A DNA stretch of 26,390 nucleotides from a virus, in IMG/VR virus record IMGVR_UViG_3300045135_001872, positions 1 to 26,390 of that record; one strand, 5' to 3'. The notes under the pieces are model-generated. The model saw only the letters and a program-made list of their open reading frames with translations, did not search any database and had not been told where the DNA came from. Below, piece by piece: positions 1,291 to 21,026 of this stretch (its first letter is position 1; every line of letters begins with the position of its first letter). The translations under genes were made by a program, and so were the position numbers.

Positions 1291-2148
1291 TCAGTATTCA
1301 TATCTTTTAAAAACTTCTTTTGAGTGTTTTTTGTCTGGATTTGAAGGACACATTCCACAAATCCATTCATCCTCGTTTTTAAAAAACTGTTTTATTTTAT
1401 CTAGTGAATCGGTTGGTTCAATACCCTTATATTTAGAGTAAGGTTTCCAATCGGGATCATCTAATAAATTATATTTAGATAAAAAGTCATTTAAATAAGT
1501 AATAGCTCCACATTTGTGAAGCTTACCATGATAAAGTTGAACGCTATGTTTTGATACACAATTTTTCCAGCTTTCTCGTGGCTTTTCATCCTTGTATGGT
1601 TTTGCGTTAAATCCGTTACCAGTATAAGTTTTATACCAGTGACCTCTCATATCTCTGATTTCTACTTCTATGCCATCATAATCAAAAACAGTTCTAAACC
1701 ATGTTTTCTTTTTTAGGGTTGCTATTCCCCAATTGTTTAAATATTTTAACTCACTTTTGAATTTTTTTAAATATCTTTTTTCGTCTGAGTGTAGGGTAAT
1801 GACCAAAGTGCAGTTATTTTTTATTAGGTTATCCTGTAACCATTCGTGTTTCGAAAGCGTAAACCCGTTAGTAAATAGTTTGATAGTTGAGTGTGGAAAT
1901 AGCTCTCTATATGTATCAACTATTTTTTCACATTGTTTGTTAAGAAGTGGTTCACCTCCAAGTAAATTTATTCTCTCTGGTCTGAGTATTTTAGACCAAG
2001 GTTCCGCCCATTCATATAAGGTATCTACTGAAAAAACTTCAGTAAAACCATAGTTTGACCAATGATTACAACCGTCACAGTTTAGATTACAACGATTAGC
2101 TACATGAATATCAATCATATAACAATCTATTAAATTATTAATACTCAT
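1291..2148 (-). CDS. Radical SAM enzyme with C-terminal extra Cys cluster
   Basis: Encodes 285 aa. The radical SAM signature C-x3-C-x2-C is at residues 20-27 (CNLNCDGC), followed by the SAM-binding GGEP motif at 64-67. The C-terminal third holds further cysteines (NCVSKH, HKCGAI and ICGMCPS), consistent with an auxiliary Fe-S site of SPASM/Twitch type (family knowledge). Such enzymes use a 5'-deoxyadenosyl radical to modify peptides, nucleosides or sugars; the substrate cannot be read here. The start overlaps the end of the aminotransferase gene by 11 nt, so the two enzymes are probably co-translated and may act in one pathway. A hairpin and T-run lies just past its stop. Confidence 0.88.
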   Translation of the reverse strand: MSINNLIDCYMIDIHVANRCNLNCDGCNHWSNYGFTEVFSVDTLYEWAEPWSKILRPERINLLGGEPLLNKQCEKIVDTYRELFPHSTIKLFTNGFTLSKHEWLQDNLIKNNCTLVITLHSDEKRYLKKFKSELKYLNNWGIATLKKKTWFRTVFDYDGIEVEIRDMRGHWYKTYTGNGFNAKPYKDEKPRESWKNCVSKHSVQLYHGKLHKCGAITYLNDFLSKYNLLDDPDWKPYSKYKGIEPTDSLDKIKQFFKNEDEWICGMCPSNPDKKHSKEVFKRYEY

Positions 2149-3205
2149 TTATAGTTTTAATTAACCTCTCTAAGTCTTGTTCACTTAGAAATGCATGACA
2201 AGGAATAAAGGCAACACTTTCTTGAAAAATTTTAGTATTTTCAAGATGATTACTTTTGGTTGCATACTTGGTTGTATTTGCTAGTATTTTGTGCTTTTTA
2301 CAATAATCAACAAACTCTTGGACAGGTACATCTACTTTTAATCCATATTTAAGATTAGTAATATTATTACCTTTTATTCTCCCAAATTTAAGCTCAGACT
2401 CTAATATAAGAGCAACGTCTTGTCTTTTTTCTCTTAATCTATCTTTTTTAATTAGTTCTATGTCTTTTAACAACACTGCGCATGACGTATTATCTAAATA
2501 CGACTTAGTACCAGAAAAATTATTACTTTGATAATGTTTAGTCATTTGCGTCAAAATTTGTCCATAATGATTAGAATTACAACAAATTGCACCACCGCTA
2601 CCAAGCGTACCTGGATTTTTTGTAAAATCATAGGAAAAACACGCTATATCTCCGCCTGTTCCAGGTATGTAAGCTGTAGATTCATTAATTATAAAGGTAG
2701 GAGCTGCATCTTCTATTACTTTTATGTCTTTGCTTTTACACAAACTTAAAATTTTAGAAGGGTCATACGAACACCCAAAATTGTAAACTAAGCAAATAGC
2801 AGAAGGACTTTCTTGCCTTTTATCTTCTAATCGTTCTTCTAGTTTTACCAAATCTATATTACCCGTCTCGTCAATATCAACTAGTTCTATTCTTCTATGT
2901 AAATATAAAGGTGCATTTTCAATTGCTCTCCACCCGTAAGAAGGAAGCAATATTAGGTCACCTGGTTTAGTTAAGACAGAGTATGCCATTTGTAATGAAT
3001 CAGTACAGCAATTTGTCATAAACCACCACTTAAAATTATAAGGTTGGTTAAGTGTTGTGATTAGTTCTGATTGAATTTTGCCTACTTCACGCCCGTCTTC
3101 CGTTTGCCAAGGATAATCTACGGCATCTGAAATAGCTCTTAAGTAGTCTACTTTATATTTTGAAAGTCTTTGTTTGTGCGGAATGCAGGATATGGTAGTT
3201 GACAT
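2138..3205 (-). CDS. DegT/DnrJ/EryC1/StrS-type PLP aminotransferase
   Basis: Encodes 355 aa, near the family's usual 360-400. Fold-type I PLP features are visible: TNCCTDSLQMA for the phosphate-binding loop (about residues 65-75), VIEDAAPTF for the Asp that contacts the pyridine nitrogen (about 164-172; the family's usual Gln or His after DAA is Pro here), and the Schiff-base Lys near 196 within SYDFTKNPGTLGSGGAI. Family members transaminate keto-sugars, commonly UDP- or dTDP-linked, for surface glycans. I chose the ATG at 3205, which overlaps the upstream stop by one base (TGATG), over a TTG one codon earlier. It is coupled to the downstream radical SAM gene by an 11-nt overlap. The altered motif leaves the substrate class open. 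Confidence 0.85.
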   Translation of the reverse strand: MSTTISCIPHKQRLSKYKVDYLRAISDAVDYPWQTEDGREVGKIQSELITTLNQPYNFKWWFMTNCCTDSLQMAYSVLTKPGDLILLPSYGWRAIENAPLYLHRRIELVDIDETGNIDLVKLEERLEDKRQESPSAICLVYNFGCSYDPSKILSLCKSKDIKVIEDAAPTFIINESTAYIPGTGGDIACFSYDFTKNPGTLGSGGAICCNSNHYGQILTQMTKHYQSNNFSGTKSYLDNTSCAVLLKDIELIKKDRLREKRQDVALILESELKFGRIKGNNITNLKYGLKVDVPVQEFVDYCKKHKILANTTKYATKSNHLENTKIFQESVAFIPCHAFLSEQDLERLIKTINEY

Positions 3206-3471
3206 CAAGAACCTATGGCGGCTTTAATCCAATCTACTATTTCAGAATGTTCACGCTTTGCATGTTTGAGTAACATTCTTGCGTCGTCTTTGAACAACAT
3301 AATACAAGGCATTCTTTTTGGAGTTTTAGAGTAGAGAGCTAGTCGAGAATCATCGTCTTCAGCAAGTTCAGTGGTAACGTCTGGAAGTGCATTTTCTATT
3401 GCTAACTTCTGTTCATTCATGTATTGTCTTAATAGATCATTTGTAAAAAATACAGCTTTGTAGTTAGCCAT
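3205..3471 (-). CDS. Small thioredoxin-fold-like protein lacking CxxC
   Basis: Encodes 88 aa. The C-terminal half, KTPKRMPCIMLFKDDARMLL, resembles the cis-Pro and following strand of thioredoxin-like proteins ('TPTxxLFKDG'), followed by an amphipathic helix. No CxxC redox pair is present, so if the fold is right it is not a conventional thiol reductase. The gene sits between a coiled-coil protein (8-nt overlap) and the aminotransferase (1-nt overlap) in the leftward operon. The fold suggestion is weak and rests on one local motif. Confidence 0.45.
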   Translation of the reverse strand: MANYKAVFFTNDLLRQYMNEQKLAIENALPDVTTELAEDDDSRLALYSKTPKRMPCIMLFKDDARMLLKHAKREHSEIVDWIKAAIGS

Positions 3472-7045: not shown

Positions 7046-7533
7046 TAAAATACTGTGAAGAACATGTAACTAGATACGGTCATCAGTGGAGATGTGATTT
7101 TGCAGGTAAGGTAGCCATATTACTAAAACCAGGCGAAGGCTATGAATGGCACTTTGATAATCTTGATTTTACTAACGGTGAATTAAGCGAAGCAAGAAAT
7201 AATAGATACTGGACACATATCATATACTTAACTACAGGTCAGCCTTTTGAAATTGGTTCTTGGAATCCAGACTCTAATAGAGTTTTAGAAACAGACTTCT
7301 CTGCGCCTGAACCTAAAAAGATACTGGCTAGAATATACCCTGAACCTGGTAAGAGCATGATGTTTCCTTGTTTTATGGTTCATAGAATTAAACCAGTAGT
7401 AGACAACCGTAGATGGGCTTTTGTAGATTTTGTTTCTAGTCCTAACTATATGGGAAAAACAAAAGAAGATTTAACTAATATATTTAATAGGTACTTTGAT
7501 GAAGATACTAGGAGTAAGCTCTTATCATCATGA
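6961..7533 (+). CDS. 2-oxoglutarate/Fe(II)-dependent oxygenase, prolyl-4-hydroxylase-like
   Basis: Encodes 190 aa. The iron triad is visible: H64-x-D66 in YEWHFDNLDF and H141 in CFMVHRIKPV, followed by Arg150/151 as the likely 2-oxoglutarate carboxylate contact in DNRRWAFVDF. This is the double-stranded beta-helix signature; such enzymes hydroxylate proteins or small molecules. I chose the ATG at 6961 because GGAG sits 3-6 nt upstream; an in-frame ATG at 6952 lacks this. It overlaps the SGNH-like gene before it and the carbamoyltransferase after it by 35 nt, so they are likely co-translated. Substrate unknown. Confidence 0.82.
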   Translation: MADFIDPEWRDCIEIGFNRKIADTSKRIVKYCEEHVTRYGHQWRCDFAGKVAILLKPGEGYEWHFDNLDFTNGELSEARNNRYWTHIIYLTTGQPFEIGSWNPDSNRVLETDFSAPEPKKILARIYPEPGKSMMFPCFMVHRIKPVVDNRRWAFVDFVSSPNYMGKTKEDLTNIFNRYFDEDTRSKLLSS

Positions 7534-8857
7534 CAGCGCTGCTGTCTCTCTAAAAAATGGTTTTATTGAGGGTGCGTCTCATGAAGAGAGGTTCTCTCGC
7601 GTAAAATTTGATAATAGATTTCCAAAAAATACTGTCGAGTGGTTAAGAGATACGTATGACGACTGGGAGTTTGCTGCTTTTTACGAAAAAGAAACCTACT
7701 CACAATTCAAATCTGACATCCGCAAATATACAACTGCAAAACCTGTACTTGTTGACCACCATGAATCACATGCTATGAGTTCAATTATTTTGACTGATTG
7801 GACTGAATGCGCTATAATGGTTGTAGATACTGTAGGTGGTAAGTTTTCAACATCATTAGGAGCGTATAGAAATGGCAAAATTGAATGGATCAAAAGGTTT
7901 CGTTATCCAAACTCTCTTGGTTTATTTTACTCTAGTGCTACTCGTCTCTTGGGATTTGAACCTCTGGTAGATGAATGCAAGATTATGAGTGCTGCTGCTT
8001 ATGGAGAACCTAAGTGGGAATCACTTATTAAAGATAAGATTTTACACTATGAAGACGGAGACTATCAACTTTTACATAACCTTATGCGTGGAGTTGGAGC
8101 AGGTGCTCTAGATTGGGATATAGCAGCATCAGTACAAAGAACTATTGAAAATATTTTAGTAAACTTAGCTGATTGGCTATATCGAGAAACTGGTTACGAT
8201 AAACTTGCTTATGCGGGTGGCGTTGCATTAAACTGTGTGGCTAATTCTAAAATTGCTAGATATTGCGCATATAACCAAATCGCTATACAACCTGCAGCAG
8301 GAGATGCTGGGTGTGCGCTAGGTGCAGCAGCTTTGATTTCAAGACCTCTGATGCAAACGCCTTTTTTAGGCTATGAATCGACAAACTATGTATCTGCGGA
8401 AGAGGCTGCTCGTAGAATAATTGACGGAGAGATCGTAGCCGTAATTCAAGGGCGTGCTGAGTTTGGACCAAGGGCGTTAGGTAATAGAAGTTGGCTTTGT
8501 ACTCCTACTCAAGCTAATATTGATAAATTGAATGAAATGAAGAAACGCGGTAAAGATTCTTGGCGTCCTTATGCACCGATTGTTCAAAAAGAAGAGGCTG
8601 ATAGGTTTTTTCACTTACATCATCCAAACGAACACATGATGTTTACTGCCGATATTATTGATGGCAATTTCAAAACCCATGACAGTTCAGCCAGAGTTCA
8701 GTTAGTAACTGGTACTAGTAACGCATATTTATGGAAAGTTTTAGAGTATACAAGACAATACGGTTGGCCTGTTCTAATCAATACTAGCTTAAATGCTAGA
8801 GGAAAACCAATAGTCAATTCTCTACAGGATATGAATGAAATACAACTATATAACTGA
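7499..8857 (+). CDS. NodU/CmcH-family O-carbamoyltransferase
   Basis: Encodes 452 aa. The N-terminal Kae1-like domain starts with ILGVSSYHHDSAAVSL and contains the metal-binding HxxxH in DHHESHA (residues 86-92) and a downstream Asp in VVDTVGG (about 110). The C-terminal YrdC-like domain has the carbamoyl-phosphate-binding signature GRAEFGPRALGNRSW and ends near INTSLNARGKPIV. Family members transfer carbamoyl groups to hydroxyls of antibiotics, Nod factors or sugars. Typical length is 500-600 aa; this one is shorter mainly in internal segments and lacks about 20 residues after the final motif. Core motifs are all present, so I treat it as functional. Flanked by two 2OG oxygenases, which suggests a tailoring pathway. 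Confidence 0.88.
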   Translation: MKILGVSSYHHDSAAVSLKNGFIEGASHEERFSRVKFDNRFPKNTVEWLRDTYDDWEFAAFYEKETYSQFKSDIRKYTTAKPVLVDHHESHAMSSIILTDWTECAIMVVDTVGGKFSTSLGAYRNGKIEWIKRFRYPNSLGLFYSSATRLLGFEPLVDECKIMSAAAYGEPKWESLIKDKILHYEDGDYQLLHNLMRGVGAGALDWDIAASVQRTIENILVNLADWLYRETGYDKLAYAGGVALNCVANSKIARYCAYNQIAIQPAAGDAGCALGAAALISRPLMQTPFLGYESTNYVSAEEAARRIIDGEIVAVIQGRAEFGPRALGNRSWLCTPTQANIDKLNEMKKRGKDSWRPYAPIVQKEEADRFFHLHHPNEHMMFTADIIDGNFKTHDSSARVQLVTGTSNAYLWKVLEYTRQYGWPVLINTSLNARGKPIVNSLQDMNEIQLYN

Positions 8858-10590: not shown

Positions 10591-11070
10591 ATGCCTACAT
10601 TTGTATATATGACAGCTTGTGATGGATGTGGACACTGTGTGGATATCTGCCCCTCAGATATTATGCATATTGATCCAGTAACAAGACGAGCAGTAAACAT
10701 TGAACCTAATTTTTGTTGGGAGTGTTATAGCTGTGTAAAAGCCTGTCCACAAAATGCTATCGATGATAGAGGATACTCAGATTTTGCGCCGATGGGTCAC
10801 AAGGTCAGAGTATTACGAGAACCAGAAAAAGGTTTTATTAGTTGGCGACTTAAGTTTAGAGATGGCAGAGAGAAAAACTTTGTTAGTCCTATTCGTACAA
10901 CACCTTGGGGCAGTATACAAGGGCCTGCTGAATATGAGTTACCACCAGAAGGCATGGTTGAAAGTCAAAAACTAGCACACGAGCCAGAGCATCTTAAAGC
11001 AGGTGATTTACGTACTATTACAAAAGACAAGTTTATAAAATATGAGTTGGAGGAACAACATGCCGCCTAG
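10591..11070 (+). CDS. aprB: Adenylylsulfate (APS) reductase beta subunit homologue, 2x[4Fe-4S]
   Basis: Encodes 159 aa. Two four-Cys motifs are complete: C10, C13, C16, C20-P and C42, C45, C48, C52-P. The second has the AprB signature CWECYSCVKACPQ, including the Trp that lies on the electron path in AprB. After the ferredoxin part come the AprB-specific beta segment (ISWRLKFRDGREKNF) and PIRTTPWGS, then a C-terminal tail like the one that wraps around AprA. AprB passes electrons to or from the FAD subunit AprA in APS/sulfite interconversion, in the cytoplasm. No aprA is in this window; the next gene, overlapping by 11 nt, is a Rieske-oxygenase homologue. It may serve host AprA or be an electron donor for that neighbour. 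Confidence 0.85.
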   Translation: MPTFVYMTACDGCGHCVDICPSDIMHIDPVTRRAVNIEPNFCWECYSCVKACPQNAIDDRGYSDFAPMGHKVRVLREPEKGFISWRLKFRDGREKNFVSPIRTTPWGSIQGPAEYELPPEGMVESQKLAHEPEHLKAGDLRTITKDKFIKYELEEQHAA

Positions 11071-12151
11071 AAATCATAAAAATTGGTTGAAACAACCAAA
11101 GGTAGAATATATTAGTAGTGAGATTTACTCATCTTATGAACTTTTTGAACAAGAACAAGAAATGATCTTTTCTAAAGTTTGGGTTCCTATGTGTCATATT
11201 AGTGAGATGAGAAACAAAGGTGACTATCGAACTATTCAAATTGCAGGTAAACGAGTCATTGCAATCAATATTGATGGCGAAAATGTTCAAGCATATTACA
11301 ATACCAACGATATTGACTTTCGTAAACCGGCAGGAACTATTTCATATGATGGTTGGGCGACTACTGAAAACCCACTACACTGTGAAGTAAAATATGGACA
11401 GATGGTTTGGGTAACACTGAATCCAGATCCTATGCCACTTGATACATGGCTAGGCGGTGCATTTGATTGTATTATTGATGCAATTGATACTGAAGAACTA
11501 GAGGTATTCCATTATCATAGAGCAATCATAGATACTAATTATAAACTGTGGCATGATACAAATAGCGAATTTTATCATGATTTTATGCACTACTTCAACC
11601 GTGTGTCAGGATTTAATGATGAATACTTTGCTAGAAAGAATATACCTTTTGATAATGGTCATGTTAATGTTAGCAGTTTTACTGTTAATTATGAAGAATA
11701 TGATGGCTTTGAGGATAGGGGAGAATTATCGTTCCCCAACCTACCACCAAACCAGTGGTACATGGTTGACCTCTTCCCAGGGTATAACTTCAATCTTCGT
11801 GGCAGTGCCTATAGATCCGACATTGTAACTCCTATTGGTCCAAACAAGGTTCTAATTGAATTTCGTGGTTATGGATTGAAAAAGGATACACCAGAAGAAA
11901 GAGCAAGTCGAATTAAAGCACATAACACAATCTGGGGTCCGTTTGGTCGCAATCTACATGAAGATCTAATCGGTGTTGCAGGTCAAGGAACTACTATGAG
12001 AGAAGGCACAGAACGCCGTAATATTCTACACGGTAGGCATGAAAACAGTACTATACATGACGAAGTAGGAATGAGACATTACTACGCTGAGTGGGGTAAG
12101 TTCATGGAAATGAGTCCTTCAAACCCAGTTTATGAAATGGCAGCAGAATGA
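11060..12151 (+). CDS. Rieske-type ring-hydroxylating oxygenase alpha-subunit homologue with a ligand-less Rieske domain
   Basis: Encodes 363 aa. I chose the ATG at 11060: GGAGG lies 6 nt upstream. The N-terminal part follows a Rieske oxygenase (VWVPMCHISEMRNKGDYRT), but where C-x-H and C-x2-H should bind [2Fe-2S] it reads NTNDID (81-86) and ISYDGW (94-99). The four ligand positions become Asn83, Ile85, Ile94 and Asp97, and the interval is about 8 residues short. The catalytic domain keeps the N-W-K-L...E-x2-H spacing (Asn160, Glu170, His173), a second His177 (one residue closer than usual) and an EDLIGVAGQ block that should hold the third iron ligand. So an oxygenase fold with an iron site but no Rieske cluster. 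Coupled to aprB upstream. Confidence 0.8.
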   Translation: MPPRNHKNWLKQPKVEYISSEIYSSYELFEQEQEMIFSKVWVPMCHISEMRNKGDYRTIQIAGKRVIAINIDGENVQAYYNTNDIDFRKPAGTISYDGWATTENPLHCEVKYGQMVWVTLNPDPMPLDTWLGGAFDCIIDAIDTEELEVFHYHRAIIDTNYKLWHDTNSEFYHDFMHYFNRVSGFNDEYFARKNIPFDNGHVNVSSFTVNYEEYDGFEDRGELSFPNLPPNQWYMVDLFPGYNFNLRGSAYRSDIVTPIGPNKVLIEFRGYGLKKDTPEERASRIKAHNTIWGPFGRNLHEDLIGVAGQGTTMREGTERRNILHGRHENSTIHDEVGMRHYYAEWGKFMEMSPSNPVYEMAAE

Positions 12152-12370: not shown

Positions 12371-12514
12371 ATGGATAAGTGTACTTGCGAAAAGTGTGGG
12401 TGTGATTGTCACTGCAACTGGGATTCTTGCAACTGCGGTTGTGACGTATGTGATTGCGGAACTACTAAGTCTGAGAAAGACATTCCTTCAACATTTGTAA
12501 ATCCTAATACTTAA
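12371..12514 (+). CDS. Cys-rich metallothionein-like peptide
   Basis: Encodes 47 aa with 11 cysteines between residues 4 and 29, almost all in C-x-C or C-x2-C pairs (DKCTCEKCGCDCHCNWDSCN, then CGCDVCDCG), followed by a Cys-free tail of 18 residues. GGAG lies 5 nt before the ATG and it fits exactly between its neighbours with 1-nt gaps, which argues for a real gene. Such Cys density implies binding of several metal ions or a metal cluster. It is not obviously a known metallothionein family. Its position after the Fe-S and iron-oxygenase genes suggests metal storage or delivery (inference). Confidence 0.65.
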   Translation: MDKCTCEKCGCDCHCNWDSCNCGCDVCDCGTTKSEKDIPSTFVNPNT

Positions 12515-13803: not shown

Positions 13804-14634
13804 ATGACGCAACTTATTTCCCCCACTAAATTTACTCACACTGTTGGCCTTTTAAGGTCATTTTTTTTGGACAAAGGTTTCAAAGAAGTACACACCCAAA
13901 ATAGACTTTCTATATTAGCAGCTTGTGAAGATCCGTTTAATGTAGCAACTTATAATTATGCTGGTCAAGTCTGGCCTCTTCCTCAAACTGGTCAAATGTG
14001 GTTAGAACACGAATTACTCTCTCAGCCCAATGAAAAGGGCTTTTTTTGTGTCTCAACTTCGTATAGACAAGAACCTAATGCTATTCCTGGTAGGCATGAT
14101 ATTATCTTCCCAATGTTTGAATTCGAGATGCCTGGTGATATTGTAGACTTAAAAAAGATGGAGTACGAACTCGTAGACTATTTAGGTTTTGATCGTCCAA
14201 TTGAAAAGACCTATGAAGCATGGCAAAAACACTATAAGGTTAATGGAGAACTTGAAGCTGAACATGAGATTGCTATGTATAATGACTTTAGTACTGCGAT
14301 GATTACAGACTTCCCAGAATTTACTTCTCCGTTCTGGAACATGAGCAGATACGAAGATGGAGTACATAGTAAAAAGATTGATGTCATCTTAGGAGGTATG
14401 GAGACTATCGGTTCAGCTGAACGTTCTACGAACGTAGATCAAATGCGCGATACATTCCACACAATCACCGAAGGAGCTTATGCAAACCTACTATATGATT
14501 TGTTTGGCAAAGACAGAGTAGAAGCAGAACTTGAAGAGTTTTTACAGTTTGATTTCTTTCCCCGCGTTGGTGGTGGTATTGGTATGACTCGCATGATTGC
14601 GGCTCTTGACACCCAGCTCTCACTCGCAGCTTAA
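13804..14634 (+). CDS. Class IIb aminoacyl-tRNA synthetase-like catalytic core (Asn/Asp/Lys subclass), no anticodon-binding domain
   Basis: Encodes 276 aa. Class II motifs appear in order: motif 1 near LLRSFFLDKGFKEVHT (17-31), motif 2 with the ATP-binding R88-x-E90 in STSYRQEPN plus a flipping-loop-like GRHD and FEFE, the subclass IIb segment KKIDVILGGMETIGSAERS (190-208; compare AsnRS 'DLLxPGxGEIIGGSxRE'), and motif 3 GGGIGMTRMI with Arg263. The N-terminal OB-fold that reads the anticodon in AsnRS/AspRS/LysRS is missing; those enzymes are 430 aa or longer. Lone cores of this kind are known as AS-AR (archaeal asparagine synthetase) and EpmA/PoxA. It could charge the adjacent tRNA, make asparagine, or modify a protein. 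Only 7 nt separate its stop from the tRNA gene. Confidence 0.8.
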   Translation: MTQLISPTKFTHTVGLLRSFFLDKGFKEVHTQNRLSILAACEDPFNVATYNYAGQVWPLPQTGQMWLEHELLSQPNEKGFFCVSTSYRQEPNAIPGRHDIIFPMFEFEMPGDIVDLKKMEYELVDYLGFDRPIEKTYEAWQKHYKVNGELEAEHEIAMYNDFSTAMITDFPEFTSPFWNMSRYEDGVHSKKIDVILGGMETIGSAERSTNVDQMRDTFHTITEGAYANLLYDLFGKDRVEAELEEFLQFDFFPRVGGGIGMTRMIAALDTQLSLAA

Positions 14635-19952: not shown

Positions 19953-21026
19953 ATGGAATATTTCAATCAAAACCAAACCGATTGGCGCATATCACAGTGC
20001 TGTCAATGGCATGATAAAACATTAGCAAAGAGGTACAACTTTGGAACAACCACCAAGACCTATGCTCTTAAAGATGGCGGGAAAGAACGGGTTCAGGGCA
20101 AGGCTCTTGAAAACTGTCGTAAACTGCTTGACATACTTACAACTTATTTTCCTGACCAACCTATGTCTTTACGCAGCTTTCGTATCAGCTCTGAGCTATT
20201 CCCTTGCTACACGTTGGACTTTACTCGTGACTGGTACAAAGAAATTTGGGAGGACATTGAAACTATACTGGCTCAAGCTGGAGAGGCAGCAAAACGACAT
20301 GCTGTTCGTTTATCTGTCCATCCTGGTCAGTATACTGTTCTTGCTTCTAATAAACCTGACGTTGTAGAAAAATCTATTGAAGATCTTGAATATCATGCAC
20401 TGTATGGTTCATTGATGGGCCTTCCTGCTCAAGATTTTTCTATGAATATTCACTTACAAGGACTCTACGGAGGTAAACATGAAGACGGTATTAAACGATT
20501 CGCCACTCACTTTCCCTACCTTTCAGACTACGCCCAAGGTTGTTTATCCGTTGAAAACGAAGATAAACCCAACGGATATGACATCAAGCACACACTTGAA
20601 CTTGCCCAACGGATCCCTATCCGCTGCACCCTCGACACACACCACTATGCCTGCCATAGAATGGTTGAGACTGAGAGAGTTAAGGTGGGCGAGAAAACGG
20701 TCAATCGGAAAGTGCGAGACGTGGATCATATCACCCACACGCATGAGTACTTCCGTGAAGCTGTCAAGTCTTGGAGAGGCGTACGCCCACTCTTCCACAA
20801 ATCCCAGTCATTCCCCCCAGATATTTCAGATTACTGGATGAAACCTAATGCACACTCTGAAACTTATTGGGATGAAGAATTGATGGCTAATCATGTTCCT
20901 ATGCTTGAATATGCAGATTTTGATATTGAAGCAAAATTTAAAGAGGTAGCTGTGCAAGGATTTTACAAGTTTATCAAAGATGAAGAAAATTTTAGCGGTG
21001 AAAATGTAATTACTAAAAGATTATAA
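19953..21026 (+). CDS. uvsE: UV damage endonuclease UvdE
   Basis: Encodes 357 aa, within the family's usual 300-400. The TIM-barrel metal ligands and motifs are in place: SSELFP, RLSVHPGQYTVLAS, MNIHLQG, SVENEDKPN, CTLDTHHY, PLFHKSQS, NAHSETYWD and the final DIEAKFKEVAV. UvdE nicks DNA 5' of UV photoproducts and abasic sites, starting an excision repair route independent of UvrABC, useful for virions in sunlit water. It has its own promoter. Base composition in the middle (about 20440-20830) is clearly richer in G+C than the genes on either side, which suggests a separate origin. The promoter and hairpin of the next unit follow closely. Confidence 0.9.
   Translation: MEYFNQNQTDWRISQCCQWHDKTLAKRYNFGTTTKTYALKDGGKERVQGKALENCRKLLDILTTYFPDQPMSLRSFRISSELFPCYTLDFTRDWYKEIWEDIETILAQAGEAAKRHAVRLSVHPGQYTVLASNKPDVVEKSIEDLEYHALYGSLMGLPAQDFSMNIHLQGLYGGKHEDGIKRFATHFPYLSDYAQGCLSVENEDKPNGYDIKHTLELAQRIPIRCTLDTHHYACHRMVETERVKVGEKTVNRKVRDVDHITHTHEYFREAVKSWRGVRPLFHKSQSFPPDISDYWMKPNAHSETYWDEELMANHVPMLEYADFDIEAKFKEVAVQGFYKFIKDEENFSGENVITKRL

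Follow-up and report, generated by a model that had tools for sequence, protein, structure and literature searches.

An AprB gene on a marine viral contig overlaps the gene for a probable catalytic half of a split methanesulfonate monooxygenase

How an oxygenase that has lost its Rieske center obtains electrons, and why a virus should encode it directly behind the beta subunit of APS reductase, are the questions raised by the linear virus record analyzed here (26,390 bases, perhaps a fragment; the window spans the whole record). An intact AprB with two [4Fe-4S] motifs and an 11-nucleotide overlap with the gene for a Rieske-less oxygenase had been noted in the initial annotation, and both were confirmed: aprB occupies positions 10591 to 11070 on the plus strand, the oxygenase gene, here called OX, occupies 11060 to 12151 on the same strand, and the end of aprB and the start of OX share positions 11060 to 11070. 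OX begins at a conserved ATG at 11060 (MPPRN...), though a longer open reading frame opens at 11042. Two models had been offered for the pair, one in which AprB replaces the lost Rieske center and another in which AprB serves the AprA of the host.

The 159-amino-acid AprB passed the curated NCBIfam aprB model TIGR02060 with 179.7 bits (cutoff, 135.65) and matched Pfam APS-reductase_C with 93.9 bits. Its cluster cysteines are C10/C13/C16/C20 and C42/C45/C48/C52, and solved APS reductases aligned with it across both cluster motifs and the C-terminal tail. The tail is kept, as is the tryptophan of the second motif, W43, which we take to correspond, also in its role, to W48 of 1jnr. An omega of 0.076 indicated purifying selection, with dS near saturation. 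No aprA open reading frame is present in the 26,390-base record, which is perhaps a fragment, such that the window AprB is not encoded together with AprA. The absence of aprA noted earlier extended to the other viral contigs, as no AprA was found there by exact peptide patterns, which were drawn from one source sequence and miss divergent copies.

The proteins closest to the window AprB among cellular sequences are from SAR116, at 75 to 79% identity. Both clusters, W43, and the tail are common to the window AprB and the AprB of SAR116 AprBA, and the phage gene differs in standing without aprA, sat, and aprM and in overlapping OX. In a tree, viral AprB formed one group within SAR116, nearest to genomes G001, G090, and G093, with an SH-aLRT value of 83 that is weak and below the usual mark. 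Moreover, viral AprB kept 84 of the 88 conserved cellular positions (53 of 54 in the ferredoxin part, 23 of 25 in the middle, and 8 of 9 in the tail), which is the retention that pairing with AprA would require. Phage-encoded AprB has been reported once, from a vent phage, and unlike for the window AprB, no oxygenase partner is described in the accessible part of that report (PMC12043954). We conclude that the phage AprB is, as judged from its sequence, most likely an ordinary SAR116-type beta subunit pairing with host AprA, which supports the second of the two models.

The only Pfam domain in OX was the catalytic domain PF00848 (30.6 bits), and no Rieske domain was recognized. As in the alpha subunits of Rieske non-heme iron oxygenases, a 2-His-1-carboxylate triad and a bridging acid are present: E170-x2-H173-x3-H177 (11567 to 11590, plus strand) supplies the bridging Glu and both His of the facial triad predicted for OX, and D302 (11963 to 11965, plus strand) is predicted to be the third ligand of its mononuclear iron. 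All four residues are invariant in the OX alignment. Full-length viral OX was represented by 103 plus 80 rows, or 183 with repeated contigs, which reduced to 149 distinct sequences; the triad was kept in 149 of 149 and the Rieske motif C-x-H...C-x2-H in 0 of 149. The triad motif reads HEDLLG in 8 of the 103 rows and HEDLIG in the other 95, with all ligands kept. The spacer typical of MsmA, C-x-H-x26-C-x2-H, is absent from OX, and the former Rieske ligand site is a hypervariable remnant loop without C-x-H or C-x2-H (approximately residues 80 to 107; 11297 to 11380, plus strand) that has about 50 fewer residues than its counterpart in one-piece MsmA. OX as a whole had an omega of 0.073, indicative of purifying selection with dS near saturation, and omega along the gene was 0.32 at the lost Rieske ligands, the most variable part, and 0.04 in the catalytic part. 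Between phage and host genes dS was saturated, so dN/dS against the host copy was unusable. An AlphaFold model of OX alone (34 viral rows) had a pLDDT of 48.9, too weak for site geometry, and the PDB matches of this weak model were Rieske oxygenases.

Relatives of OX were found in at least 599 viral-contig stretches, and AprB was found in 21 loci. Conservation of the pair had been set beforehand as a check, and it was borne out: among the AprB contigs besides the window with enough sequence, OX lay downstream of AprB in 19 of 19, directly in 18 (spacing of −8, +7, or +16 nucleotides) and after 687 nucleotides in one. Because OX followed AprB in every one of these contigs, the pairing is not due to chance. 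No testable contig had AprB without OX. Of 149 distinct viral OX sequences, 131 came from contigs with no AprB seen, some of which are cut off upstream. Several distinct phage backbones carry the pair, and the AprB label switches at least five times on the OX tree. Phage HMO-2011 has OX and no AprB, and its OX groups (98 on the OX tree) with that of the SAR116 genome G079, a single 2.75-Mb contig that likewise carries OX and no AprB.

One way to explain such a distribution is that AprB and OX are separately useful and are together only through one spreading recombination cassette, without functional coupling. Viral AprB is a single group, whereas OX sequences are diverse and those with AprB are scattered across the OX tree, and a third gene, at 13804 to 14634, recurs nearby in varied orders, as would be expected of a cassette. 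We nonetheless consider this explanation improbable, since AprB does not occur without OX in any testable contig and both genes trace to sulfur loci in the same bacteria.

The gene at 13804 to 14634 (plus strand) encodes a 276-amino-acid protein that carries a domain resembling class II tRNA synthetases (PF00152, phrog_29758). It recurs near the pair in varied order and strand and was present in 6 of 13 AprB-positive loci of at least 8 kb versus 4 of 41 without AprB. Behind OX, at 12371 to 12514 (plus strand), is a gene for a metallothionein-like 47-amino-acid protein of no Pfam family whose first 29 residues include 11 Cys; relatives of this protein are also present in L003 and L090. An IscA/ErpA-like gene for Fe-S assembly immediately precedes OX in phages without AprB (L016:7349-7645, which matches PF01521; L060:2558-2866; L061:5893-6201). 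Elsewhere in the window are possible modification genes (1291 to 3208, minus strand, and 7496 to 8857, plus strand) for a radical SAM protein, a DegT-type aminotransferase, and a Nol-like carbamoyltransferase, and a gene for a UvdE-type UV endonuclease (19953 to 21026, plus strand; PF03851).

The OX profile also matched 13 of 136 genomes of the SAR116 order, where OX is chromosomal, and a search with a Rieske half returned exactly these 13 of the 136. Both halves were present in 12 genomes, one half alone in none, and a one-piece enzyme in G129. In 12 of 12 split-type genomes, host OX keeps E, H, H, and D and has lost the Rieske motif, of which a vestigial CP[S/Q] remains. Conversely, C, H, C, and H are retained and H, H, and D are missing in all Rieske halves with sequence across the region. 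The G092 Rieske half was seen as contig-end fragments only, and for G079 the row L225, a fragment cut at the region end, was left out, as the whole gene is in L223. The Rieske-reductase protein keeps C-x-H-x26-C-x2-H when aligned with the one-piece MsmA of G129, which has all eight ligands in one chain, the same operon, and the 26-residue spacer. Pfam divided the domains likewise: PF00355, Pyr_redox_2, and Reductase_C without PF00848 in the Rieske half, which in most cases forms a fusion protein with an FAD ferredoxin reductase; PF00848 only in OX; and PF00355 plus PF00848 in G129. In G001 (L199:15189-17575), the Rieske half and the reductase are two overlapping open reading frames with an internal TGA, which is either real or a sequencing error. 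We conclude from the ligand patterns that the split of the alpha subunit is a case of complementary loss after duplication.

The host genes run in the order tauABC, Rieske half-reductase, msmB, msmC, OX, TauE, fhs, and folD, and OX is surrounded by genes for a sulfonate transporter, the Rieske ferredoxin MsmC, sulfite export, and C1 metabolism. The same gene set appears in another order in G001 and G089, and between msmC and OX the host locus holds a gene whose 279-amino-acid product matches no Pfam family. A prophage origin of chromosomal OX was rejected, as the operon is conserved in 12 host genomes. In G001, G090, and G093, sat-aprM-aprB-aprA is on the OX contig about 10 to 12 kb away. The link to sulfur is stronger than first thought, because OX is itself part of the methanesulfonate (MSA) locus of the host. 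Both msmA and aprABM have been reported in SAR116 (PMC8547437). The Rieske motif has been described as missing from HMO-2011 and from one of the two MsmA-like proteins in IMCC1322, and the accessible part of that study identifies no partner for the Rieske-less protein (PMC4433239). We found no description of a split alpha subunit in the literature searched, which largely excluded subscription journals.

In Rieske oxygenases, electrons pass between neighboring subunits, and therefore a heteromer built from two such halves can, in principle, be functional. Since the host paralogue retains the Rieske center and OX retains the triad, the electrons for OX most likely come from the host half, as in NdmCDE. 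With a probability of roughly 70%, we propose that OX is the mononuclear-iron half of a split MSA monooxygenase with the host Rieske half as electron donor, that AprB pairs with host AprA, and that the phage supplies one subunit per step. The proposal is based on family assignments, complementary ligand loss, co-occurrence, synteny, SAR116 affinity, and retained constraint. From gene affinity, the phage host is likely to be SAR116. The host would contribute the Rieske half, usually with its fused FAD ferredoxin reductase, as well as MsmB and the Rieske ferredoxin MsmC, and phage OX would assemble with that half and receive electrons at its iron from the Rieske center of the host partner. The enzyme containing phage OX would convert MSA, the presumed substrate, to formaldehyde and sulfite, and host AprA with phage AprB would then oxidize sulfite to APS. 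In an infected cell, two successive host complexes would thus each receive one phage subunit, presumably to the benefit of the phage, much like the psbA supplied by cyanophages. Why just these subunits are carried is a matter of guesswork; fast turnover of oxygen-exposed iron proteins, as with phage psbA, might be the reason. No Rieske half was found on viral contigs by exact peptide patterns, again from one source sequence and blind to divergent copies.

The AprB clusters could instead feed the mononuclear iron of OX directly, as the first of the two models held. AprB and OX are both redox proteins, their adjacency is constant in viral contigs, and the pair recurs across phage backbones with repeated changes of the AprB label. 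We regard such a role as very unlikely: loss of the Rieske center is family-wide and mostly without AprB, G079 has OX alone, the missing center sits on a co-operonic host paralogue, and phage AprB retains AprA-type constraint, tail included. AprB as a universal Rieske substitute was rejected, as most OX copies are without it. A direct link is also conceivable, in which host AprA oxidizes sulfite and phage AprB relays the resulting electrons to OX, such that MSA-derived sulfite pays for the next oxygenation without NADH; we give it only the slimmest of chances. It counts against our proposal that AprB and OX are not neighbors in the host, and their constant adjacency in phages implies a coupling for which a shared pathway accounts only loosely. 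We conclude that the missing electron center is most likely on the host protein and not on the adjacent phage AprB.

Another possibility is that phage OX takes the place of the catalytic half made by the host and slows the enzyme or redirects it, through an altered substrate or as a dominant-negative subunit, with no boost of MSA oxidation. The former Rieske region of phage OX is variable and unlike that of host OX, and the phage brings no partner subunits. The catalytic core, however, is nearly invariant, with the triad intact in every distinct copy, which favors retained OX activity and makes such interference unlikely.

OX is carried by at least several hundred marine viral contigs and was recognized from HMO-2011 onward as an MSA monooxygenase that lacks a Rieske motif. 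The proposed split would explain the Rieske-less viral gene as coding for the catalytic half of an enzyme found as two separate proteins in some SAR116 bacteria, and phages would supply two successive sulfur-oxidizing complexes with one subunit each. The HMO-2011 gene (ADW08429) is a 71% identical homologue, likewise Rieske-less, and differs from the window OX in its lack of AprB and in its annotation as a whole alpha subunit. One-piece MsmA (Methylosulfonomonas type; here G129) has a homologous catalytic domain (58%, OX versus G129) and shares the operon neighbors, facial triad, and bridging Glu, whereas OX has no Rieske motif and its enzyme is divided over two genes. The described precedent for a split oxygenase is the N7-demethylase NdmCDE (PMC4408171), and as in that enzyme, the SAR116 host has the Rieske domain on the reductase and the catalytic domain on a separate chain, a likeness of analogy and not of descent. 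NdmCDE differs in reductase type and in substrate. The SAR116 split arises inside the MSA family, no NdmE-like (GST) protein was recognized, the 279-amino-acid protein of the locus belonging to no Pfam family, and phages carry the catalytic half only. The split MSA enzyme would represent a separate instance of the arrangement seen in NdmCDE.
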